Origin: Planctomycetaceae bacterium
GTDB lineage: Bacteria > Planctomycetota > Planctomycetia > Pirellulales > Pirellulaceae
Direction of reading: 5' to 3'
Assembly (NCBI GenBank): GCA_007127095.1
Contig: SKZY01000240.1
Coordinates: forward strand, 1 to 32,216
Length of the DNA: 32,216 bases
Below, in pieces: positions 6,511 through 17,957 of this stretch (position 1 is the stretch's first letter; the number at the start of each line of letters is the position of its first letter). The position numbers and the translations under genes are program-made. The notes beneath the pieces were generated by a model, which worked only from the letters and a program-made list of their open reading frames with translations, had not been told where the DNA came from and made no database searches.

Positions 6511-9500
6511 CTAACGGACGCCCGATCGATCGGTAAACGATCGCTCAACGCCGCGTCGCAGCCCGGCGGCGGGCCGCGGGGCGAGCAACGGCACCGCGGC
6601 GGCGACCGCGCAAATCGCGATCGCGACCGGTGTCGGCGCGACGACCAACGAGGTAAGTCCGACGACGAACAGCCACACCGCAGGGTGCGAGAGCGGGCGT
6701 ACCAGGTGGTGCCTGAATCGCCACGCCAACCAACATCCGCCGCCAGCCATCACCACGGCGATCAAGAGTTCGATCGCGGTCGCCACCTTTTCTGTCCGCG
6801 ATCGACCATGCAACTCGGGCAATTCGCGGGCGGCACCGGCGTACGTCGCCACCAGACCGACCGTCCAATCACTCGAGGCCGATACGGAAAGCGGCGGGTC
6901 GTCGTCGGATCGGACTTCGCTTCCCGCCACCCGGCGAACGTATTGTCGCCATTGCCGTCCCAGCAATTCCCAACTCGCGGCGGTGTCGTCGTCAAATCGG
7001 ATATCCAACGGACCACCGGGGCGTCCGCCAATCGCTTCACCACTCTCGGTCAGGTCGATCTCCGAATCGGTTCCATCGAGCAACGCCTGCCAAGCTGTTC
7101 CTTGCCCGTTCGGCTTCACGGCTTCACGACGCAGCGCGTTCATCCACCCGTCCCAGGGGCGGAGCCAGGAAACCAGCTCGTCTTGCGGTCGGTCGGTGGC
7201 CCCGCTGATCGACGCTTCGGTCACTTCGATCACCGATTCGGCCAATGACAACCATCGATCTTTCGGTGAGGAAGTCTGCCACCCGATATCGGCATCCGAC
7301 CCGATCGACCACGCCCGATCGGGCGTCCCACTGGCTCGATAGATCGTCAGCCAGGTCCGCTGGGACTCGATGCCGACCAAGGTTGGTAGCCCGGTGGGCT
7401 GTCCCGACTCACGTTGAAACCGACAGAGCAGCACCAACGGCTGCGCCAATCGGCTGAGAGCCAAGGTGACATCGAGCGTTTCTGGCACCCGGTTCTTCGC
7501 GACAGCGATCGGCTGGCCGGCATTCCAACCGGCGATCGGATCACAGCCCGGTGGGATCTGGAGCGAAACTGCGGTGGCGTCTCCCGGTTCGAGATCCCAA
7601 CGGATGATCGCCAACCACTCATCGTTTCCCTGAGGGAAGAGCCGGATATCGGTCGCGGTCGCCCGGGGCAGAATGCCATCGGGGCGAGACGGTTGCAGTT
7701 GAACCGCGGCGCCGGCATTCAGCGATCGAAAGACGAGTTGCTCCTCTGCCGACGGGTCGCCCGCGACGTCTTCGGCGGCCGCGGGTGACCGTTCCTGGTC
7801 GGCCAATTCCGCTGGCAACCGATCGGCGACGGCTGACAAGGTGTTCCACACCAACGGCCTTCCCGCCACCGATCGAGGGACGACCAAGAAGGAGCGGACC
7901 GAGGCCGCGCCGAGCAGTCGGACCGAGGGGACTTCGAGTGACGAATCGGTTTCTGATATCCGCATCCCTTGGATCCGAAGCTTTGCCTCGCCGTCGCTAC
8001 GCGACTCGGCATCGGGACGGATACGGATGATCCGCGACGTCTGATCGACACCGGGCTGGCTCGACCAAGCCTCGGCCGGTTCGACGCTCACTTGGTCGTC
8101 CCAGGCGGTCGGCAGTTCGACATTGATGTCATCCAGCAACGGCTGCCGTTGGCCGTCTGCCCCGAGCGACTCGATATGAAACAGCACATCGACCATCCAA
8201 CGCGACTTATGCCAACGGATCGCGGTCCGCTGGGTCACTTCCAACCGCGTCATCAACGGTTCGACGCGAAAACTGCCGCCCAGAACGGCCGACTCCGCCA
8301 GCGACGGTTCGAGCCGCCAATCCCAACACGGGATCCAGCCGCCTAACAACTGATCGGCGACGTTCAGTGGTGAAGTTTGAAATTCGGCTAGCCCCGGCGG
8401 CTGCAGCTGTTCGACTCGCAGTGACCGGTCTCGCGTCAAACTATAACTTCCGGATGCTTCGGTGATCGGATCGACACGAATTCGTGGCGGATTAAAGGCC
8501 TGCCCAAACGACAGCGGCTGACGTGCGTTGACCCGCAGCCGAATCGTCTCGGCTCCGGTCGGCTCACCGAGCAGCAGTTCCCAAGCCCCGTCGGATTCGG
8601 TCGGCTCGCCCGCCACCGGGCTACCGTTGATCGTGATTTCACGGGCATCCAACCGAGCTGGCATCACCAATCGCAACGGTCCCACGGATCGCTCCCCACG
8701 GCGGATCACGGCCTCATAGGAAAGCAGCATCTCGCCCTGCCGGACGTGTAAGTGATGTGATTCCTGAAGGCTCCAGCGACGCACCGGAGACGCGGTCAGT
8801 TCGAATCGAGGCAGACGACTCGCCGCCCGAATCACATCCTGGGCGATCCCCCGGTATCCTTGCCAGGCGGTCACAAACGCATCGACTTGGTCGGCCGATT
8901 CGATCGATTCTGGATCACCCAACGTCGAGAGCCGGAAACCGTCGCTCGCCTGCAGTGCGATCAATGCCTCGGACGTTGCCGCCGACCCGGCCGAAATCAC
9001 CTCGGGTATGACCAGGGTCGGGCCGGCGTTGTCGCCCGTCACCGCTGGCGTCGCCAGGTCCCAGAGCAGACGGATCGGCTCTTCGGTTTCACGCCGCGAC
9101 CGGATCGTCAACAATTGGCGTTGTGCCGAAACGATCTCGTGCGAGCGGATCGACCAGTCGGTCGAAGTCAGCCGCGGCTGTTGGTCCCCAAGCACCACGA
9201 TCGGTACTTCGATCCCGCCACGAATCGACTCGATGGCCGGCTCCACCTCACACTCGACCTGATAGCGTTTGGGACCAGCATGGATCCAATAGCGACGTGC
9301 CTCGATCCCCGGAATGCCACGGTTTCCCTGACGGAGCATGACGAGCAATTCGAGCGAGTTGACTGCGCCTAGATCGGCTGATAGTCGGCCCGCTTCGGGC
9401 TTGGAGAGCACTTGTCCGATCGCCCCCCGGAGGTCGAACCGTTGCACTGCGGCCGTGCTGTCGACGACCAACGAAGCGGTAGCCACAGCCGGGATCGTCA

Positions 9501-12500
9501 TCGCGATTCGTCGTTGTTGTCGCTCGGGCGACTCGACGTCTGTCGCCAACCGCAGCAGCAAAGCGGCCGAGTCGGTCGGCGGCAGCGAGATCCGAATCCC
9601 TGACTGCTCCGCTGACGTCCACCGCAGCGGTTTGGCCTCGCCGCCTGGCAACCACTGAACCGAACGGACGTCCTGAGGCCGGATCGGTAAAAAAATCTCG
9701 GATCGCCGGCTGAGATTCGAAAGCGAATAACGGATCTCCCACTCGGCCGCCGGCATCCCCGATTCGGTCATGCCATCCAAACGTAAACGATAAACCGCCG
9801 ATGTGATCAAGGGTGGCGCAACCGATAATCGCTTATCCCGAAACAGTTCGTTGAAGAATCGCTGCGAGATATAAACTTTATCACCGACCAAGGTGCCCTC
9901 GGCCGTGGTCGGAACCAACACCATTGGTCGGTCGGTCCGTTCGGACTTTGCGGAACGATTCCCCTGATCGACACGTTCAGCGGGATTCTGCCCCCACGCC
10001 GTGCCGCCTCCGACGATGACGACTCCCAACCCTAACCCGACGACGCCCCGTTTCGCCACCGAGCGGGCCGAAGCGGCGACCGAAGTCTTGCCGCCCAGTG
10101 GCGTCGGAGGACCTCCGGTCGGGCCGCCCTCTGCCAGACCACGAAACGGACGCAAGCCGCTCGCGGCGAGTGTCGTGCCGATCAACCCACCCGAGGCGAG
10201 TGGCAGGCTGACCGCCGCCACCCAACTGACCCAGCCATCCGCCAGCCAGGGTACGAATCCCAACGAAATCGCGAAACCGATACCGACCAGGACGGGGTGA
10301 CATGGTGCGGCCCACCAGGCGATCGCGAATGTCAAAAAACCGACGATCGAACCGAGCGACAGCCACAACGAGCGATCCACCAGCCAGAACGACCGGGGGA
10401 CCAATGGATCGAGTGAATGGAGACGCGGGTCGGAAGCCAGCAGCGAATCGCTGGGCGGTGCAACCCGATCCGAAGTAGTCGCCAAGATCTGGTCGAATGC
10501 TCGACTCAATCCGGTGCCCCAATCGTCGAAGGTCGGGCTGGCGATCAACACATCGGTAGCGGCCATCACTTGCCAATGTCGATCCAAAATGACTGCCGAG
10601 GTTGAGATCCGCGGAGGTGACCAATTCCGCAGCGCGGCCGTACCCGCGACGGGGCGCGCCCAGCGGATCGTGACCCAGCTCCGCCCGCCTGCGGCCTCGA
10701 AGAGCTCGTCCGTCGCGGCGGAATCGGCGGAACGCTCCTTGACGACAACCCTCCCCGGACCCGCGTCGTGGGGGAAATCGGCACCGTTTGAGTCGGTCAC
10801 ACCCACCAATCGCAGATCGGTATCGTGCTCGATTACCAAGTCGGCGCCGCTGTCGAGGCTGTAGGTCGCCGTGATCCAGTCGCCGCCGCTGGAAGCGATG
10901 CACTGAACCGTCTCACGCCACACCACCGGTACCGCTGCCGGCGGATCGGCCATTGCGACCTCGACCCAACTCGTGCCCGAAGAATCGTATCGCAACGTGA
11001 CATCGCCGACTTGAACCGGCTCGCGGACGCCAGCGGCGGAACCGTCCGCCGTGATCGGAGGCACTCGAAGTACTCCTTCGCCGAAACCGACGAGTTGGAG
11101 CGAACGCGGTACCAAGACCCGAGCCGAACGCGAGTTGGCACCGAAGACGCTCGGCAACTCAACACGTACCGGAGACTTCAGCGGATATTCGCGGCGACCG
11201 ACCAAAACGACCGATCTTGACCCGGTCCGCTCGAGCTCTAAGTCCCAGATTTCACGTCTCACCGTGGCCTCACCGACCGCTACATCGGTCGGCGTGACAC
11301 TCAATCGCCGCGCCCGGATTAACCGTCGGGTCGGCGATTCGCCGGCGTCGACCGACCACTCGATGTCGGGACGATCGCCGGCCTCGAACTCGACGCGTAC
11401 CTGGTCCAGGTCGCTCGATCCTGAATCGCAACGGATCACATGGGTTTCGCGGAGTCGGTCGTCGGCGACCGTCAAAGAGAGCCGGCTGTCCACGTTGAAA
11501 GCCGCCGCGGGACGAAAACTTCGCAACGAACCGACGCGGCCGTGGCTGATGTCCAACAACATCGACTCGGCCGCCGCGTCACCGAGCAGCCGCCGCTGCG
11601 TCGGCGTCAACCGATCGACATCGATCCGTGTCCCCGAGAGCGACGCGTCGGCCAACCAGCGAAACCCCGGTGGTGGTGAGACCGAGGCGGCGAATCGGGT
11701 GCGGGCGTTCGCTACTCGCCCGAAAGCGGTCGCGGGATAACGCGCGAAATCGCCGTCCACCCTCAACGGACGATAGCCGGTAGCACGAACCGCTACGGTC
11801 CCCTCGTCGATCTCCTCCGACGCGGGCCACAGCGTCACCTCTCGAGAACTGACAAAGTCGGCAGGGACTTCGATGGCACGACCACTGCGAGGCAATGTCA
11901 CGCTTTCGAGAATCCAGCCCTGATCGAACCTCAAGACGATCGGACTTGGGCCCTGGCTGGGCAACCGAACGACGCTGTTGAGGATCGCGCGATAGCGAGA
12001 TTCGGTGGCGGACAACCGGACGATCGATTCGGCGAACGGCTGACCCGACTCCGAGACCACGCGGACCAGTGGCGCCCGATCGCCCCAAGGGCCACCGATC
12101 CGATAGGTCAAACGTCGGTCATCCGTTTCTGCCGGTGACAGGTATTGCCAACCTGCGGGTAGGTCGAGTCGCAACAGATTCAATCGCGAGTCGATCATGA
12201 GCTTCGACTGCAACTGCCCTCCGAGCAAGATCGAATCGGATTGCCGCGGCACGATCCAAGGGAGTGCGCCGGCGACCCCATCGCTACCCCAAGACGCCTC
12301 ACCGCCGATCGTGATCGTGACCGGCGATCCGCTCGGCGCTTCAGCAGACTCAGCGTCGATTCGAATCAAGCGGCCATCGGTTGCGGAAGATTCCGTCCAA
12401 CGCGTTGCCGATCCGCCGACGGCAACCGAAGTCACCCGCCCCTCGCTGATCCGAAATTCCGGCAACGTCCCATCCTCAGACGGGTCGCTCACCAACCTCG

Positions 12501-13443
12501 CCGTGAATCGGATCACGGCCGGGTTTAATTCGTAGAGCAACGATGCTTGGCGAATCACGGCCGTCGCATCCGCTCCACCGGTGGCTCCCTTAATCGCTCG
12601 CAAGCGAAGCCGAGATAGTCCACCGCTGTCGATCCGATACCACGACGTTCCCCGCCCGGGATCCTGAGCCTCCGGAGGAGGGTTCGACAGCCGTTCGACG
12701 ACGCCATCGAGAGACACCAAGCGGACTCCGGCGGGCACCTCGATCAACCACCGCGACTGACCGGCGGCCGGAATCGCCAAATCGAAACCGATCTCGCGAT
12801 CCCGTTCCTCGCCCGCTGCGGTCCAGGACAAGGCTAACTTCGTATCGCCCCGAACCGGCACCGAAACCATTCCCTCGGGATCGGTCTCGATCGGCAGTGC
12901 ATCGGACCGTAGCCCCGCCATCGTCCCCGACGAAAATCCAGAAGCCCCGATCGCCAATCCCAACCGACCCAACTTCAGTCGTGTCGGTGAGTCGTCCTGA
13001 TGGGAGATCTCCCAGGTCGTTTGATTCGAAACCAGTGACGAGTCGATCAATTTTGCGATATAGACCGCCCGCGTGAGTTGAGGTTGGGCGAACGGCGACA
13101 ACGAACCACTGCCGAACGACTTCAGACGCTCATCGAGCTGCCCGGCGGCGACCGGTCGAAACGTGTCAGGGACCAGGCCCGCAGCCTGGCCTTGAAAGAA
13201 GTAGATCGGCCGTAACCGGGAAAACGACTCCGGCAACCTCGGTGTGACCCGATCGGCTGATAAATCGCTTTCGCTGCTTACCGACTCCGTCTCCGCTTCC
13301 GCTTCCTCCCGATTCGCAGAGGTCTCATCGCTGCGGGCCGGCAAAGCCCAACCCGCGATCAGCAGTACGAACAGCAACAGTCGGCCGGCATCACGATGGG
13401 GCGATCTGGTCACCGTAAATCGGTCGCGGCGGTATGCGTTCAT
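6511..13443 (-). CDS. Giant exported membrane-anchored protein, apparent fusion of two modules; function unknown
   Basis: I recognise no family for this 2,310-residue protein. Residues about 20-38 form a signal peptide (RLLLFVLLIAGWALPARS). Residues about 40-1015 are rich in beta-type alternating sequence with no clear motifs. Three hydrophobic segments follow (about 1019-1046, 1051-1068, 1071-1095). After a Gly/Pro linker, residues 1131-1151 look like a second signal peptide (KRG, then Gly/Val-rich, ending TAWGQ). A second beta-rich part (about 1155-2215) ends in another hydrophobic cluster (about 2220-2240 and 2255-2288). The layout suggests two ancestral genes fused end to end, each resembling the protein encoded just upstream. 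The ATG at 13443 overlaps that gene's stop as ATGA, implying translational coupling. The frame is open further up to 13785, but that part lies inside the upstream gene. The bulk is predicted to be periplasmic. Confidence 0.88.
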   Translation of the reverse strand: MNAYRRDRFTVTRSPHRDAGRLLLFVLLIAGWALPARSDETSANREEAEAETESVSSESDLSADRVTPRLPESFSRLRPIYFFQGQAAGLVPDTFRPVAAGQLDERLKSFGSGSLSPFAQPQLTRAVYIAKLIDSSLVSNQTTWEISHQDDSPTRLKLGRLGLAIGASGFSSGTMAGLRSDALPIETDPEGMVSVPVRGDTKLALSWTAAGEERDREIGFDLAIPAAGQSRWLIEVPAGVRLVSLDGVVERLSNPPPEAQDPGRGTSWYRIDSGGLSRLRLRAIKGATGGADATAVIRQASLLYELNPAVIRFTARLVSDPSEDGTLPEFRISEGRVTSVAVGGSATRWTESSATDGRLIRIDAESAEAPSGSPVTITIGGEASWGSDGVAGALPWIVPRQSDSILLGGQLQSKLMIDSRLNLLRLDLPAGWQYLSPAETDDRRLTYRIGGPWGDRAPLVRVVSESGQPFAESIVRLSATESRYRAILNSVVRLPSQGPSPIVLRFDQGWILESVTLPRSGRAIEVPADFVSSREVTLWPASEEIDEGTVAVRATGYRPLRVDGDFARYPATAFGRVANARTRFAASVSPPPGFRWLADASLSGTRIDVDRLTPTQRRLLGDAAAESMLLDISHGRVGSLRSFRPAAAFNVDSRLSLTVADDRLRETHVIRCDSGSSDLDQVRVEFEAGDRPDIEWSVDAGESPTRRLIRARRLSVTPTDVAVGEATVRREIWDLELERTGSRSVVLVGRREYPLKSPVRVELPSVFGANSRSARVLVPRSLQLVGFGEGVLRVPPITADGSAAGVREPVQVGDVTLRYDSSGTSWVEVAMADPPAAVPVVWRETVQCIASSGGDWITATYSLDSGADLVIEHDTDLRLVGVTDSNGADFPHDAGPGRVVVKERSADSAATDELFEAAGGRSWVTIRWARPVAGTAALRNWSPPRISTSAVILDRHWQVMAATDVLIASPTFDDWGTGLSRAFDQILATTSDRVAPPSDSLLASDPRLHSLDPLVPRSFWLVDRSLWLSLGSIVGFLTFAIAWWAAPCHPVLVGIGFAISLGFVPWLADGWVSWVAAVSLPLASGGLIGTTLAASGLRPFRGLAEGGPTGGPPTPLGGKTSVAASARSVAKRGVVGLGLGVVIVGGGTAWGQNPAERVDQGNRSAKSERTDRPMVLVPTTAEGTLVGDKVYISQRFFNELFRDKRLSVAPPLITSAVYRLRLDGMTESGMPAAEWEIRYSLSNLSRRSEIFLPIRPQDVRSVQWLPGGEAKPLRWTSAEQSGIRISLPPTDSAALLLRLATDVESPERQQRRIAMTIPAVATASLVVDSTAAVQRFDLRGAIGQVLSKPEAGRLSADLGAVNSLELLVMLRQGNRGIPGIEARRYWIHAGPKRYQVECEVEPAIESIRGGIEVPIVVLGDQQPRLTSTDWSIRSHEIVSAQRQLLTIRSRRETEEPIRLLWDLATPAVTGDNAGPTLVIPEVISAGSAATSEALIALQASDGFRLSTLGDPESIESADQVDAFVTAWQGYRGIAQDVIRAASRLPRFELTASPVRRWSLQESHHLHVRQGEMLLSYEAVIRRGERSVGPLRLVMPARLDAREITINGSPVAGEPTESDGAWELLLGEPTGAETIRLRVNARQPLSFGQAFNPPRIRVDPITEASGSYSLTRDRSLRVEQLQPPGLAEFQTSPLNVADQLLGGWIPCWDWRLEPSLAESAVLGGSFRVEPLMTRLEVTQRTAIRWHKSRWMVDVLFHIESLGADGQRQPLLDDINVELPTAWDDQVSVEPAEAWSSQPGVDQTSRIIRIRPDAESRSDGEAKLRIQGMRISETDSSLEVPSVRLLGAASVRSFLVVPRSVAGRPLVWNTLSAVADRLPAELADQERSPAAAEDVAGDPSAEEQLVFRSLNAGAAVQLQPSRPDGILPRATATDIRLFPQGNDEWLAIIRWDLEPGDATAVSLQIPPGCDPIAGWNAGQPIAVAKNRVPETLDVTLALSRLAQPLVLLCRFQRESGQPTGLPTLVGIESQRTWLTIYRASGTPDRAWSIGSDADIGWQTSSPKDRWLSLAESVIEVTEASISGATDRPQDELVSWLRPWDGWMNALRREAVKPNGQGTAWQALLDGTDSEIDLTESGEAIGGRPGGPLDIRFDDDTAASWELLGRQWRQYVRRVAGSEVRSDDDPPLSVSASSDWTVGLVATYAGAARELPELHGRSRTEKVATAIELLIAVVMAGGGCWLAWRFRHHLVRPLSHPAVWLFVVGLTSLVVAPTPVAIAICAVAAAVPLLAPRPAAGLRRGVERSFTDRSGVR
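9991..10053 (-). other. Internal signal-peptide-like segment inside the 2,310-residue giant
   Basis: The codons for residues about 1131-1151 encode Lys-Arg-Gly followed by a Gly/Val/Leu-rich hydrophobic run and TAWGQ, a typical signal-peptidase-like ending. The codon for residue 1129 is GTG, so a vestigial internal start is conceivable, though I see no Shine-Dalgarno before it. Its place between a membrane cluster and a fresh beta-rich domain fits a fusion junction. Confidence 0.5.
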
Positions 13444-16400
13444 CTGGCCTCCGTCGATCCGTGCGTGGGCGCTTCCAAGGCGACCGCAGCCGAGCCCGAG
13501 TAAGCCGACGAGCGGACCGACGAACGTTCTAGCGAGTCGCCGCCGGTGGTCAGCACCCGTGCCGGACGCCGCGGTGCGAGTAGATATCCTACGGCGGCCA
13601 TCACCGCCACCATCGTCATTGCGACCAACATCACCTGGCCCGCCAAGACCGCGGCGTCGGGCAGCAAAGACGTCATCCCCGCCAGCAGGATAGCACCCAC
13701 GACAGCCAGCAGAGGATGTCGCAGTACCGGGAAATAACTCAACAACGAACTGACGACCAAAACCGTCGAGCCGACGATCAGCCAAATCATCAGTCGTGAC
13801 ATCGTGATCACCTGTAGGTCGGTCGGATCGATGCCGACGAACAGATAGCGGTTGCCCAGCGGGAGACGAGATTCACCGCCCCCACCGGCCCATTCGGTCA
13901 AATCGGCGGTCGATTGCCGCGGCTGACGGTACAGCCGCCATCGGTCGAACAACCACTGCATCGCCTGGGCGGTCGTCGGCGACGACCAGATCAGGTGGTC
14001 ATCCCGCGGCGTCAGCACCTCCCAGAAAAACCGCTCCGTAACCGTCGGCAACCCCAACAACGGCCGGATCTGCTCGATCCCCATCGCCGCTTCCCGGTCG
14101 GCGTAAAGCTGCAGGACGACGACATGATTTCCGGCAGTTCCGAGTTGTACCGAACAGGCGTCGTCGTCCTCGCGGAGCACTTCGGCGTCCTGGCCATCGA
14201 CCGTCGCCACCACCCTTGCCGCCATGGCGGCCGGTGACAGCGGTAGTCGCAACGTCTCGCCGCCGTATACCGTGGCGACCAATTGATCGCTCTGTCGTTG
14301 TCGACTGACCGAGGTCCGCAACACCGCTCGCCGAACCACGGCTTGATCGAGCTCTTGATCGACTCGCCGGAGTCGCAGCGGAAGTTCCGCAGGTGGGAGC
14401 GTTGCCAAAATCAGTTCGTCGGTCCAGCGGCCCTGCGAATCACGGGCGCTGAGTTCGACCGCCGACTGACCGCTGAAGCGGACCAACATCGCGCCTCGTA
14501 GGGTCAATTCGCCAACGTCGGGACGAGGCAGGATGCAGCCGGCCAGCCGATAGGTGCGATCGGATCGCGTCGCGTCGCCCCAGGCTGACGGCAGGTCCCG
14601 TTCTCGCCGAAAACGGATTTTATGCGGCCCGACCGAAAGACCATCGCTGAAGATGCTGTACTCTCCGTCTGCATTCGCACGCAAAATCGCCGCAGCATCA
14701 TCAACCGTAACCGTCCAAAACGGGATCGCCCCGAGCTGATGGATCGGATCGCCGTCGAGGGTCGCCGCCTCGGTATTCCGTTCGGCTTCGTCACCCTCCG
14801 CATCGCTAGGATCGGCTGCGGCTTCGATCGGCGTTTCTCCCCAGACGACCGGCAATCTCCCTCGTAGACCGCTGCGGGGATAGACCGTCCATTCGATCGA
14901 TTCAACCAATCGCCCCTGCTGGATCGAAAAATGCGCTTCGGCAGCCAGCGAAACCCCGGGTCGCTCGGTCACCAAGAAGCCAGCCAAACGGGGCGATTGC
15001 GAGATGTCGGGAAGCGCGTATCGGCTTTCATAGGCCGACTCGCCACGACGGCCCCCACCGAGTCCGGCTAATGGCGAGGCGATCGAGGACGCCGTGGTCT
15101 CGGACGTGTCGGCGCTGCTCGGAGCCGCGTCCGCGGCTGACGAAGGCTGCACCCGGAGGTTCTCACCGATTCCCTGCGAAGCCGTCAAATCGGCTATGAA
15201 CCGAAAGTCGGCTTGAGCGGAAACGGTCAACGAGGAAGCCGCACCACCGATCAACTCGGGGTCGCCAGCGACCCGTGGCATGTCGAACTCGACGCGGTCT
15301 TGGTCCTCGCCCAACGGGCTGACCAGGACGATCTCGATCTGATCGTTCTCACCACCGTTCGGTAGGCTGGCCAAATCGATCTCCAGCAGACTGCCGGTTT
15401 GATCCGCGTCAGCGGGCAGGTTCGTGCCGCCGACGGCCAAACTCTGCAGATTCCAGGTCCCGATGTCGATCGGCAATATCCGCGAATCGGGAACCCCGCC
15501 GCTCGTTTTTAGCAACAGTCGCAGTGACGCCAAAGTGTCGTAAAACGTAAGTCGATAATCACCTTCGACCCGCAAACGCTTGGCCCGTGCCGACAACCAG
15601 ACCGGCAACTCGAACGGGACCCGGTCGAACCGGAACCGATAGCTGCGGCCCGTCAAGGCATCGGCGTCGGTCTGATCCCAAAGGCTGTTGACCCAGGGCC
15701 GTGGCTCCCACCGCAACCGGTATTCGCGCGGGACGCGGATCTCGATCTCCCCTGATTGTTCGATCGCGTCATCGACCGCTACCGGGCGAATGATCACCCT
15801 ACCACCCGGTCGTCCTTCCTCGCTCCGCAACTGAGTCGCCACAGCGATCTCGGTCCGGGAATCGCCACGGTCGCCGACCGGCACAACACGGATCACCCGC
15901 CCACCGGCGTCGTCGTCCGTCGCGGCAGTGACACGGTCGGAATCCAAAGGGTCGGCAACCTCGAAGGGGGTCCCGCCGCGGACCACTGGTTGCTGCAGCA
16001 ACGGTGCCGTATCGGGCAGCCGAAGCGAAAACGCTGACAGGTCGCCACGGCCGCTCCGCACCGAGATCTCGTGTGCCACGATCGGGGAATTGTCGGCTTG
16101 CTGCCAGTCGACCATGATCCGCGACTCGCTCTCCAACACCGGGCGGTCATCGATCACCGGCAATTGGGCGCCGAACCGGACGCTGAACTTGCCGCCTCCA
16201 CCGTCGACCGTCACGGCGGTCGCATTTTGGCCCGGATCGGTCGCCAATACCTCGTCGCCGCGGCCCAGGATCGTCGCCGATACGTCGGCCGATGGAATCT
16301 CCAATTCCACATGACTGGGCGCTTCCGGCAATCGAAAGTCGATCGATGTGCTCGGGGCCGGGGTGACCCGTGAGACGACCTGCATCGAGACCACGACCGA

Positions 16401-16994
16401 TCGTCGAATATCACTGGTCAAGTGAACCACATGCCCTTCCTGAGCACCGCCCAGGTCGACCCGGTAACTGTCAATCCCCGAGACCTCAGCCGGCCCGGTG
16501 CGATGAAAATTGTCCATCCGCATCGGTACCGTTACCCAGCGTCCGCCGGTCGGTTCCAGGTCGATGCGAACCGTGACCGTCAGCTCCGCCGACGTCTCCG
16601 CTACCCTCCCACGGACCTCCACCGTTTCAATCGTATAAAGTGGCTTGGGGCGTTCATTCCCCTCCTTTAGCGATAACAGTTCATCCAATTTCTCGAACGT
16701 CATCCCGGGTACGATCACAGGATTTCCGGCCTCGTCGAGGAACAGGAAAGCCTTCGGATTGACCTCACGCGAATCCCCGTTGCCCGGCTGCCCAGCAGAC
16801 TCGGCCGATTGGGTTGCCTCCGTTCCGTTCGCCGTGGACTGGCCGACGCCGAGCATATCACTCGGGGGGAGCGTCCCCGGTGGTTGCCCGAATGCCGGGT
16901 CGACAATCGTCGACCCCAAGGCGATGACCAAGCAGAACCCCGTCAGCATTCGTGACAGCGCCCTAGCCGGAGAGAAATGAGATCGCAGGGCCAC
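13440..16994 (-). CDS. Large exported membrane-anchored protein, single-module relative of the downstream giant; function unknown
   Basis: This 1,184-residue protein is not one I recognise. An Arg-containing N-terminus and hydrophobic stretch (about 15-36, ending DPAFGQ) form a signal peptide. Residues about 100-1050 are beta-rich exported sequence with an Ala/Ser-rich low-complexity linker near 617-645. The C-terminus holds about three membrane helices (about 1067-1090, 1094-1110, 1114-1140) and a short Ser/Arg tail. Features shared with the downstream giant include LDELL at about 103-107, WEVLTP ... SSPT at about 991-1007, and a His-Pro pair at 1093-1094 before a membrane helix. The start is GTG at 16994; an ATG at residue 16 has AGGGCG upstream but would lose the basic part of the signal peptide. 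It follows the 236-residue gene after a 177-base gap holding a weak promoter-like site. Confidence 0.88.
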   Translation of the reverse strand: MALRSHFSPARALSRMLTGFCLVIALGSTIVDPAFGQPPGTLPPSDMLGVGQSTANGTEATQSAESAGQPGNGDSREVNPKAFLFLDEAGNPVIVPGMTFEKLDELLSLKEGNERPKPLYTIETVEVRGRVAETSAELTVTVRIDLEPTGGRWVTVPMRMDNFHRTGPAEVSGIDSYRVDLGGAQEGHVVHLTSDIRRSVVVSMQVVSRVTPAPSTSIDFRLPEAPSHVELEIPSADVSATILGRGDEVLATDPGQNATAVTVDGGGGKFSVRFGAQLPVIDDRPVLESESRIMVDWQQADNSPIVAHEISVRSGRGDLSAFSLRLPDTAPLLQQPVVRGGTPFEVADPLDSDRVTAATDDDAGGRVIRVVPVGDRGDSRTEIAVATQLRSEEGRPGGRVIIRPVAVDDAIEQSGEIEIRVPREYRLRWEPRPWVNSLWDQTDADALTGRSYRFRFDRVPFELPVWLSARAKRLRVEGDYRLTFYDTLASLRLLLKTSGGVPDSRILPIDIGTWNLQSLAVGGTNLPADADQTGSLLEIDLASLPNGGENDQIEIVLVSPLGEDQDRVEFDMPRVAGDPELIGGAASSLTVSAQADFRFIADLTASQGIGENLRVQPSSAADAAPSSADTSETTASSIASPLAGLGGGRRGESAYESRYALPDISQSPRLAGFLVTERPGVSLAAEAHFSIQQGRLVESIEWTVYPRSGLRGRLPVVWGETPIEAAADPSDAEGDEAERNTEAATLDGDPIHQLGAIPFWTVTVDDAAAILRANADGEYSIFSDGLSVGPHKIRFRRERDLPSAWGDATRSDRTYRLAGCILPRPDVGELTLRGAMLVRFSGQSAVELSARDSQGRWTDELILATLPPAELPLRLRRVDQELDQAVVRRAVLRTSVSRQRQSDQLVATVYGGETLRLPLSPAAMAARVVATVDGQDAEVLREDDDACSVQLGTAGNHVVVLQLYADREAAMGIEQIRPLLGLPTVTERFFWEVLTPRDDHLIWSSPTTAQAMQWLFDRWRLYRQPRQSTADLTEWAGGGGESRLPLGNRYLFVGIDPTDLQVITMSRLMIWLIVGSTVLVVSSLLSYFPVLRHPLLAVVGAILLAGMTSLLPDAAVLAGQVMLVAMTMVAVMAAVGYLLAPRRPARVLTTGGDSLERSSVRSSAYSGSAAVALEAPTHGSTEAR

Positions 16995-17171: not shown

Positions 17172-17882
17172 TCAACTGCTCAGCGGCAGCGGCCGGTTGA
17201 GCAACTGCGCCGAAATCCCGTCGGCAACTTTCCGGGAAATCATCCCGTTGGACCAAACCCACCAAGGACGCACTCGACGGATCACCCCTTTTTCCAGAAA
17301 CTCGCCGAAAAAACGGACTCGCCCCGAATCGTGGATCGATTCGGTCTTCAGCGACCGTCGATCGCATCCGTCACAGAGCAGGCTGGTGGCGATACTCGGG
17401 CCGAGCGACGTCAGATCGTCCGCGGCGTGCAGCCAGATCGCCGTCGGCTCGCTGGATAACACCTTCCAATCGACGGACCCCCAACGGGGATGACCCGGGT
17501 GTCCCGATCCGACCTCCAGGTCGACCTCCGGTTGGCTTTCCAACAGAGACGTATTGAGCGAGATCTGTGACTCCACGACCAACCGCTGCTCATCGGCTTC
17601 GATCGCCGTCAAAACGAGTTCGATCCCGATCGGGTGATCCTGGCTGTTCGCCAAATTGACGTGCAGCGCATCACCACGAATAAAGCTCTCGACACGATCC
17701 GGCAACGAGATCCCAGGAAGTACAAATCGAGTCGAGGACGCGACCAAGTCGTCGCGACAAACCAACATTCGGACCTCGTCTCGCGCGGTTCCCCGTCGGA
17801 CACCTCGCTCGCCTGAGGCGAGCACTAACTTCCAACCGTTGGTGCGAAACTCGGCCAGACCCGGTTCAGGGTTTTCCCACAT
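17172..17882 (-). CDS. Conserved-looking soluble protein of unknown function
   Basis: I do not recognise this 236-residue protein. It has no signal peptide or membrane segment, so it is probably cytoplasmic. Visible features are an acidic, beta-rich first half, a CDGC pair at about residue 170, a basic-aromatic stretch FLEKGVIRRVRPWWVW near the C-terminus, and the ending LNRPLPLSS. The ATG at 17882 directly follows a TTG that could also initiate. The frame is open back to the TAG of the surface protein gene, 72 bases upstream, but no better start exists in between. It lies between the surface protein gene and the giant membrane protein genes on the same strand, so co-expression with them is likely. 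Another frame continues past its stop to 17050, but I see no good evidence for a frameshift. Confidence 0.7.
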   Translation of the reverse strand: MWENPEPGLAEFRTNGWKLVLASGERGVRRGTARDEVRMLVCRDDLVASSTRFVLPGISLPDRVESFIRGDALHVNLANSQDHPIGIELVLTAIEADEQRLVVESQISLNTSLLESQPEVDLEVGSGHPGHPRWGSVDWKVLSSEPTAIWLHAADDLTSLGPSIATSLLCDGCDRRSLKTESIHDSGRVRFFGEFLEKGVIRRVRPWWVWSNGMISRKVADGISAQLLNRPLPLSS

Positions 17883-17957
17883 CAATGCGGCTTTCTCGAC
17901 AGTGGTTGATTCGCAAGCGGGACGACCTCCCGCTCCCGAATCGTAACCGAAGTCGAG

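Follow-up and report, generated by a model that had tools for sequence, protein, structure and literature searches.

Two adjacent planctomycete genes encode three related modules that look like an undescribed part of the cell envelope

A stretch of 32,216 nucleotides of Planctomycetaceae DNA (contig SKZY01000240.1), here called the window, carries two large adjacent genes, and the question it raises is what their products are and what they might do. P1 (13440..16994) encodes 1184 residues and P2 (6511..13443) 2310 residues, as stated in an earlier note made from the sequence alone. P2 starts at an ATG at 13443, within an ATGA that overlaps the P1 stop by 4 bases; these genes and all features given below lie on the minus strand. 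The note proposed that P1 and the two halves of P2, here P2N and P2C, are copies of one unrecognised membrane module, and that they may form an envelope complex.

Three modules with one layout

All three modules run from a signal-like segment through about five tandem beta-domains to membrane helices at the C-terminus, in keeping with the common layout that the note described. P1 begins with a hydrophobic segment, judged by eye to be a signal peptide (residues 1-36, ...AFG/Q; 16887..16994), and a cap region with counterparts in P2N and P2C (residues 82-110, including LDELL; 16665..16751). Domain 1 (117-277; 16164..16646) is M1-N-like by VIA match and has P2C domain 1 as its best partner; domains 2 (about 287-469; 15588..16136) and 3 (about 474-605; 15180..15575) were recognised from self-profile repeats and the domain matrix; domain 4 (about 656-880; 14355..15029) was recognised from these and from the structure model, in which 723-756 is of low confidence; and domain 5 (883-1066; 13797..14348), again M1-N-like by VIA match, runs into a modelled three-helix membrane anchor (1067-1139; 13578..13796) with conserved R1092, P1112 and Q1120. 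P2 opens with a signal peptide, also judged by eye (1-38; 13330..13443), followed by the P2N five-domain array (about 115-985; 10489..13101), placed by profile homology to P1 and P2C, a cluster of three hydrophobic membrane helices (about 1025-1100; 10144..10371) and an internal signal-peptide-like segment with a candidate signal peptidase site (1130-1151, ...TAWG/Q; 9991..10056). P2C then comprises a five-domain array (P2 1208-2055; 7279..9822), a modelled helical insert preceding the anchor (P2 2060-2176; 6916..7266) and C-terminal membrane helices in which P2C P1150 is invariant (P2 2220-2287; 6583..6786).

The alignments held 55 of the 58 P1 sequences collected (A1; L086, L108 and L116 left out) and 51 of 53 P2N and P2C sequences (A2 and A3; L108 and L116 left out); the fused L064 and L099/L100, recovered later by profile, are in none of them. 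Profile-profile comparison of each module with the other two, which the note had suggested, found all three homologous: P1-P2N at 99.8% (E 8e-30, 941 columns), P1-P2C at 99.7% (2e-25, 795 columns) and P2N-P2C at 99.8% (1e-29, 778 columns). In a separate alignment the module pairs scored 99.0-99.5, and the ectodomains alone 98.5-99.5, whereas four reversed or shuffled whole-module comparisons, all involving P1, gave at most 2.6. The P1 self-profile revealed internal repeats at a shift of about 166 aa, and a matrix of the 15 domains of the three modules, with boundaries set by hand, formed one linked family. First domains paired best with first, third with third and fifth with fifth, whereas second and fourth domains paired best with third domains and not with their own position; among reversed-domain controls 1 of 225 comparisons reached 50 and 6 of 225 reached 20. 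With single-sequence BLAST no similarity was detectable beyond that of the P1 and P2N membrane clusters (28.7% over 87 aa, E 0.002), and this near silence is what one would expect if the resemblance were due to chance or to the composition of beta-rich protein. That reading is virtually impossible, being refuted by the gap between control profiles (2.6 or less) and real pairs (99.0 or more), by the 99.7-99.8 of the second alignment and by the domain matrix.

What carries the homology is the whole five-domain ectodomain, and not the short motifs that the note had listed as recurring at matching places. The motifs themselves stand where they were said to be (LDELL at 103 and WEVLTP at 991 of P1; LDERL at 103, WQVMAA at 957 and FNELF at 1197 of P2; His-Pro pairs at 1093 of P1 and at 1049 and 2253 of P2). 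When residues were mapped through the profile alignment, LDELL fell exactly on LDERL, W991 of P1 on W957 of P2N and W911 of P2C, and HP1093 of P1 on HP1049 of P2N; FNELF, on the other hand, was off by one, SSPT and ASPT were two residues out of register, and the P2C cluster with its His-Pro pair was not aligned. The aligned Trp is kept in 51/55 P1, 27/51 P2N and 41/51 P2C sequences. The motifs make weak family markers, the His being kept in 35/55 P1 (H1093), 4/51 P2N (H1049) and 14/51 P2C (H1133).

A known fold in modules without a curated family

Single-protein searches of Pfam, NCBIfam and PDB sequences with P1 and P2 gave nothing above the cut-offs, and no Pfam or NCBIfam family for the modules emerged when 38 module sequences (A5) were scanned at E 0.01. 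To that extent the earlier statement that the modules match no known family is correct. PF04597, PF17900, VIT, VWA, signalling and adhesion domains were all absent from the 38 members in the Pfam scan, and we found no open-access paper describing the P1/P2 system.

The fold, by contrast, is a known one. AlphaFold (AF2) models of P1 and P2C, a check that the note had called for, had mean pLDDT values of 78.4 and 81.5; because pTM was only 0.39-0.48, they do not fix the inter-domain geometry. By Foldseek, both models found as their first PDB match an oligosaccharyltransferase-complex chain, which we take to be ribophorin I/OST1 (E 2.0e-8 for P1 and 5.3e-9 for P2C; probability 1.00 over about 430 columns, rmsd 11-18). 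P1 679-1067, two domains and the start of the membrane segment, matched that chain by VIA with Z 12.0 and rmsd 14.9 over 306 residues. Single domains matched M1-type domains by VIA, which has no power to exclude other folds: P1 117-277 matched aminopeptidase N and related chains (Z 11.1-11.5, rmsd 3.0-3.5), P1 883-1066 the M1 N-terminal domain (Z up to 13.0, rmsd 2.8, 139 aligned) and P2C 88-251 the same domain (Z up to 12.8), and a P1 domain matched TFIID chain 7edx_B, presumably TAF2 (Z 11.6). The P2N profile, which was searched against PDB sequences, found the LTA4 hydrolase N-terminal domain by sequence alone (E 4.7e-4), the sole match below 0.001 with any of the three profiles; the P1 profile gave that match at E 0.74, and it was absent with P2C. 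Also among the structural matches were GPI-transamidase chain T, which we assume to be PIG-T, for P1 only, ITIH1 (a VIT domain) for both models, and integrin alpha/alpha-2-macroglobulin-type chains for both at TM 0.07-0.17 and rmsd above 20. We conclude that the modules are predicted tandem arrays of beta-domains resembling the N-terminal domain of M1 aminopeptidases, by model for some domains and by sequence profile for the rest.

A tandem M1-N architecture is known from ribophorin I, and the present modules would extend it to a widespread bacterial system. Like ribophorin I/OST1 (PF04597), they seem to place tandem beta-domains ahead of a membrane segment; unlike it, they are bacterial, number three with about five domains each, end in a three-helix anchor and have no PF04597 match over the cut-off, and a link to glycosylation is not demonstrated. 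In 40 genomes PF04597 was never over the cut-off, and none of its three weak matches was on a P1/P2 contig. With the N-terminal domain of M1 aminopeptidase/LTA4 hydrolase (PF17900) they share the fold of the single domain, at Z 11-13 and an rmsd of about 3, but their domains stand in tandem, with neither a catalytic domain nor a conserved HEXXH, a motif found in 2/55 P1, 1/51 P2N and 0/51 P2C sequences. PF17900 was over the cut-off in 17 of the 40 genomes, never at a known P1/P2 place and not in G000; a 1174-aa frame of G100 with a weak match to it (E 0.2) proved on inspection not to be a module. PIG-T and ITIH1 are weaker likenesses, and no VIT family match occurs in the 38 members.

Columns at 90% identity or more in the P1, P2N and P2C alignments contain only P, W, G, F, L, Y, one Q and the start M, with no sign among them of a catalytic residue set. 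Enzymatic activity is still conceivable because some polar columns are conserved at 80% identity, namely E101, R901, R1023, N1048, R1067, R1092 and Q1120 of P1, R818 of P2N, and D60, R551 and Q881 of P2C.

Distribution, gene order and a possible cleavage of P2

Profile searches, confined to Planctomycetota, matched P1 in 105/117 genomes of the order, 101/118 of the class and 48/149 phylum-wide. When 100 high-quality genomes were sampled from the order, 90 had P1. The family regions were the window and 60 others hand-chosen from 77 genomes with a P1 match, fragmentary matches being left out; loci L140-L159 and L179-L193 were hand-picked from match lists. In the gene-order survey that the note had recommended, P1-P2 adjacency held in 61/61 family loci and in all 20 others examined. 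The idea of a conserved planctomycete envelope system is borne out. In 48 of 60 non-fused family loci the last bases of P1 read NTGA, and the NTG within them is in frame with the following gene. The modules are three separate genes in L193, L179 and L180 and are fused into one gene in L064. A supposed fused P1-P2 frame in G182 was rejected, as a stop lies between, and L112 and L117 were not counted as split P2 genes, having frameshifts within P2. In a tree of 109 modules from 36 loci, with a second ('b') system assigned by hand and approximate P2 split points, modules mostly grouped by position across genomes. All 20 P1-type modules fell in one clade (support 0.993), and the position-sorting score was 20 against at most 6 in 200 permutations; the exceptions, placed outside their own group, were 3/20 P2C-type modules, with 6/16 and 4/16 in the second system.

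An inositol monophosphatase gene precedes P1 in 33/81 loci, a P0004-type gene lies near it in 29-30/81 and an acetyltransferase gene in 13/81; no other neighbour cluster reaches 10/81. The P0004-type protein of the window (17172..17885; 237 aa, LEKGVIRR motif) is a possible companion; it has no Pfam match, and hhalign scores below 1 to the modules led us to reject it as a fourth relative. The neighbours in the 81 loci gave no functional pointer, and no mechanism follows from the inositol monophosphatase or the acetyltransferase. At single loci, a GT87 glycosyltransferase gene lies 76 bp upstream in L158, from the class, and a VWA/YfbK gene 4 bp upstream in L190.

A C-terminal membrane-helix cluster is present in every module, as the note said, with three hydrophobic segments in 55/58 P1 proteins and two in 3/58. 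The clusters of P1 and P2N align by profile (score 92.9), whereas that of P2C does not align with either (4.8 and 13.0), though its modelled helix layout is similar. P2 may be a polyprotein, because the segment preceding P2C looks like a signal peptide that could be cleaved. By motif counts, with signal sites judged by eye, [AG]Q ends occur in 36/53 internal segments, against 46/57 P1 N-terminal signals (p 0.13) and 50/178 P1 anchor-helix tails (p 3e-7); AxA taken by itself is a weaker discriminator, with 18/53 against 29/178 (p 0.01). It is nevertheless quite possible, somewhat short of an even chance, that P2 stays uncut as a single polytopic protein whose two arrays both lie in the periplasm, with a plain returning transmembrane helix between them, an alternative to the cleavage step and not to the scaffold discussed below. 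Three helices and one mid-protein give a consistent topology, the fused L064 retains the same segments, and several of the 53 picked segments resemble ordinary helices without a clear cleavage motif. Against an uncut P2 are the [AG]Q and AxA ends, about as frequent in the internal segment as in N-terminal signals, and the signal-like starts ending ...AQ in the separate-gene versions of L193 and L188.

A proposed periplasmic scaffold and its alternatives

P1 and P2 have the appearance of a structural envelope component not described before. Their architecture, tandem domains plus helices in three modules, is well supported; the scaffold function we infer. In the reading we prefer, to which we give slightly less than an even chance, P1 and P2 supply three paralogous, non-enzymatic envelope proteins that make an inner-membrane-anchored periplasmic scaffold of three arms. 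Sec would export each array, which would remain in the periplasm, held to the cytoplasmic membrane by the helices at its C-terminus. Coupled translation across the ATGA overlap would keep the amounts of P1 and P2 equal, and a cut at the internal signal-peptide-like segment would probably release P2N and P2C from each other. In the enlarged planctomycete periplasm the three arms would assemble into a hetero-oligomeric scaffold or tether that acts through binding and spacing, not through catalysis. The complex that the note suggested is something we infer from gene order, fusion and fission, and positional divergence. A bolder version, which we regard as rather unlikely, is a planctomycete-wide, ribophorin-I-like periplasmic skeleton that sets inner-membrane distance or curvature in the enlarged periplasm. 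Its three obligate paralogous arms, each with about five M1-N domains, would have begun as three genes and been progressively fused into signal-peptidase-cut polyproteins. The system bears on how planctomycetes build and shape that periplasm and the folded inner membrane. A large gene pair without a Pfam or NCBIfam name now has a predicted fold, topology and candidate cleavage site, and the predictions are open to test in genetically tractable species.

In the ER, ribophorin I and PIG-T hold clients or partners next to membrane machines, and the arrays could be similar accessories beside a translocon, glycosyltransferase or secretion machine. The first PDB match, shared by the two models, the VIA match reaching into the membrane segment, chain T among the P1 matches and the GT87 gene of L158 speak for such an accessory. 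We think it unlikely, given PF04597 over the cut-off in none of 40 genomes, a VIA rmsd near 15 over two domains and the lack of any neighbour cluster in at least 10/81 loci besides the three named. The last point, together with the absence of signalling domains from the 38 members in Pfam, also makes it very unlikely that the modules are sensors or receptors whose VIT/M1-N-like ectodomains pass a signal from the envelope by way of the helix cluster and a cytoplasmic tail, as the ITIH1 match, the VWA/YfbK gene of L190 and the conserved R1092, P1112 and Q1120 of the P1 anchor might suggest.

A place outside the cell, as a surface adhesin or S-layer component, would suit the integrin-alpha-like matches and the statement, in the accessible text of PMC5177795, that planctomycete giant genes encode mostly surface proteins or PKS/NRPS. 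P2, at more than 5 kb, is of that size class; the class is defined by gene size, and the same text names no such family. We consider this highly improbable, since each array is followed by membrane helices, which speaks for an anchor in the inner membrane, and the 38 members have no Pfam adhesion domain; the neighbouring P0003, unlike the modules, carries one.

Three related modules in two genes

As the earlier note had described, two large ORFs lie in the window, P1 (13440-16994, minus strand, 1184 aa) and P2 (2310 aa), the latter starting on the minus strand at the ATG at 13443 and overlapping the P1 stop. A 2424-aa frame for P2 was set aside, the longer reading being taken as a spurious 5' extension. 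To collect relatives, 100 genomes of the window's family were searched with P1 and P2, which matched 77 and 21 genomes, respectively; 60 regions were taken, and profiles were made from 55 sequences for P1 and 51 for the P2 halves, P2N and P2C. The proposal that P1, P2N and P2C are three copies of one module was borne out when each profile was compared with the other two, the scores being 99.8 per cent for P1-P2N (941 columns), 99.7 per cent for P1-P2C (795 columns) and 99.8 per cent for P2N-P2C (778 columns). The sole single-sequence BLAST match between modules was that of the P1 and P2N membrane clusters (E 0.002). With a second alignment (58 and 53 sequences) the modules scored 99.0-99.5 against one another and the ectodomains alone 98.5-99.5; reversed or shuffled controls, run in four comparisons each involving P1, gave 2.6 or less. 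The homology and architecture of the modules are well supported.

All of the sequence markers quoted in the note are present where it placed them, and their correspondence held in part. In the profile alignment LDELL/LDERL, W991/W957 and the His-Pro pairs HP1093/HP1049 are in register, but FNELF is out by one residue, SSPT/ASPT is out by two, and the P2C His-Pro pair lies beyond the alignment. The marker Trp is conserved in 51/55 P1 and 41/51 P2C sequences, with a lower count in P2N (27/51); the His-Pro histidine is found in 35/55, 4/51 and 14/51 P1, P2N and P2C sequences, respectively. The membrane anchors of P1 and P2N match by profile (92.9). The P2C anchor matches neither by profile (4.8 and 13.0), although a similar helix layout is predicted for it.

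Fold, known families and possible role

Self-comparison of every module profile gave off-diagonal matches; in P1, residues 130-850 align with 296-1003 (97.8), a shift of ~166 residues. When each module was divided into five pieces, at boundaries that we set, the 15 resulting domains formed one connected family in a profile matrix. First, third and fifth domains had their best partners at their own positions, while second and fourth domains paired best with third domains. Among 225 comparisons with reversed domains, six reached 20 and one reached 50, the latter being P1 domain 3 against its own reverse.

AlphaFold models of P1 (pLDDT 78.4, pTM 0.39) and P2C (pLDDT 81.5, pTM 0.48) are chains of beta-domains with terminal helices. 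The top Foldseek matches were human oligosaccharyltransferase complex chains, 6s7t_E for P1 (E 2.0e-8) and 8b6l_O for P2C (E 5.3e-9). The models of P1 and P2C share the domain chain and the type of top match; P2N is joined to them by profile. We take 6s7t_E, 8b6l_O and the accompanying yeast chains, displayed by entry title alone, to be ribophorin I/Ost1. Lower-ranked matches of both models were integrin alpha, M1 peptidases and ITIH1, and the P1 model also matched GPI transamidase chain T, presumably PIG-T. With VIA-align, P1 117-277, P1 883-1066 and P2C 88-251 matched the non-catalytic N-terminal domain of M1 aminopeptidases (Z 11-13, rmsd ~3), and P2C 432-612 matched yeast oligosaccharyltransferase chain 7oci_A (Z 12.2, rmsd 3.7, 175 residues). 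By the profile matrix, the remaining domains would belong to the same M1 N-terminal type. The P2N profile matches LTA4 hydrolase by sequence (E 4.7e-4).

That the modules fall outside known families, as the note had suspected, agrees with a scan of 38 module sequences: Pfam listed four families, with a single member matching each (best E 0.0011-0.0076); that in the window's P1, the family for which a cut-off was given, fell below it, and NCBIfam listed none. In 40 genomes, Peptidase_M1_N exceeded its cut-off in 17, at places other than P1/P2, and Ribophorin_I in 0. The M1 zinc motif HEXXH is not conserved in the modules, and the columns that reach at least 90% conservation hold P, W, G, F, L, Y, a single Q and the start M, which together argue against an enzyme; the 80% level adds seven polar residues in P1, one in P2N and three in P2C. 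Our best inference, falling only just short of an even chance, is that P1/P2 form a three-armed periplasmic scaffold that is anchored in the inner membrane and is not an enzyme. The main rival, a ribophorin-like accessory role, is the one to which the top structural matches point and for which the family scan gave no counterpart; we consider it unlikely. Literature abstracts describe the planctomycete periplasm as enlarged. Giant genes are reported to be frequent in planctomycetes and to encode mostly surface proteins or PKS/NRPS (PMC5177795), and a Planctopirus limnophila TraDIS study counts 108 essential, phylum-specific proteins of unknown function (PMC10632474). The P1/P2 system was not mentioned in the available portions of PMC8567305, PMC4973528 and PMC10279528.

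Distribution, gene order and module splits

The P1 profile matches 105/117 genomes of the order (90/100 of those of high quality), 101/118 of the class, a sample containing members of the order, and 48/149 phylum-wide, 8 of the 48 being from the window's own class; these samples contain some genomes used to build the profile. Among the named relatives (19 loci) are Rubripirellula obstinata, Roseimaritima sediminicola and Rhodopirellula MAGs. With copies of P2 that are broken by a frameshift or run off the contig counted along with intact ones, the gene-order survey placed P2 directly 3' of P1 in 61/61 family loci, one of them fused, and in 20/20 further loci picked from P1 matches outside the family or second copies. 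Of the 60 family loci without a fusion, 48 have a P1 that ends NTGA, with the NTG in the next gene's frame. Conservation and linkage of the pair are well supported. Twelve genomes carry a second, diverged P1-P2 pair beside the main one (second copies fetched as L140-L149, L151 and L155). At two loci, L112:8483-15704 and L117:8383-15038, the P2 homologue is broken by a frameshift, either an assembly error or real.

The modules also occur as separate genes. Locus L193, from the same order, has three genes of 1670, 1506 and 1682 aa, best matching P1, P2N and P2C, respectively; L179 has three in that order (1128, 1237 and 1138 aa), and L180 likewise has three. Conversely, L064 holds all three modules in one 3448-aa frame that retains hydrophobic signal-like segments at each junction. 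A tree built from 109 modules places every one of the 20 P1-type modules in a single clade (support 0.993); the 20 P2N-type modules group with one intruder (0.94), and 17/20 P2C-type modules group (0.909). In the second system P1 is fully sorted (16/16, support 1.0), and the other two positions partly, at 10/16 (0.992) and 12/16 (0.669), with one intruder each. Scores in 200 within-genome position permutations were at most 7, versus the observed 20, 18, 17, 16, 8 and 10. This grouping by position suggests that the triplication is probably old and that the three positions are probably not interchangeable. Four modules, two single and one double, are found at L188:1597-16157; module 4 is sister to that locus's own module 2 (support 1.0), and the four-module version looks like a recent duplication.

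The internal segment of P2 and neighboring genes

Ahead of P2C is a hydrophobic segment, residues 1130-1151, ending TAWG|Q. [AG]Q follows the picked internal segment in 36/53 P2 proteins, compared with 46/57 P1 N-terminal signals (Fisher p 0.13) and 50/178 P1 anchor helices (p 3e-7), and AxA occurs in 18/53, 17/57 and 29/178, respectively (p 0.01 versus helices). By eye, a few of the 53 picks resemble plain helices (L061, L083, L094 and L116). In L193 and L188 the separate-gene versions have signal-like starts ending in AQ. Because its internal segment has these signal-like endings, P2 may be cut by signal peptidase into P2N and P2C. It is also quite possible, though we lean somewhat against it, that P2 remains uncut, an alternative to the cleavage step and not to the scaffold.

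An inositol monophosphatase gene precedes P1 in 33/81 loci, and a P0004-type protein is near P1 in 30/81, often on the opposite strand. P0004 itself (17172-17885, minus strand, 237 aa) has conserved MW, RG-DL and LEKGVIRR motifs and matched no Pfam family; neither neighbor gives a clear functional link. A possible partner lies upstream of P1 at L190:14200-17001 (minus strand), a VWA/YfbK_C protein of 934 aa within the retrieved region, with a 4-bp gap between its end and P1; at L158 a GT87 glycosyltransferase is upstream of P1. Upstream of P1/P2 in the window, P0003 (17958-23081, minus strand, 1707 aa) has the planctomycete export signal PF07595, SdrD_B, GEVED, Big_9/cadherin-like and dockerin I domains over cut-off, a PPC domain slightly under it, and a metallopeptidase-like motif, HELAHSFGIWH, at residue 427 (window ~21803); judged by its predicted domains, it is a surface-type multidomain protein. 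P0007 (23470-24963, minus strand, 497 aa), Gly/Cys-rich in its N-terminal part, gave no family above cut-off. A gene for a TolC-type outer membrane efflux protein (PF02321; 3324-5750, plus strand, 808 aa) is convergent with the P2 end, with a DNA-alkylation-repair gene between them.
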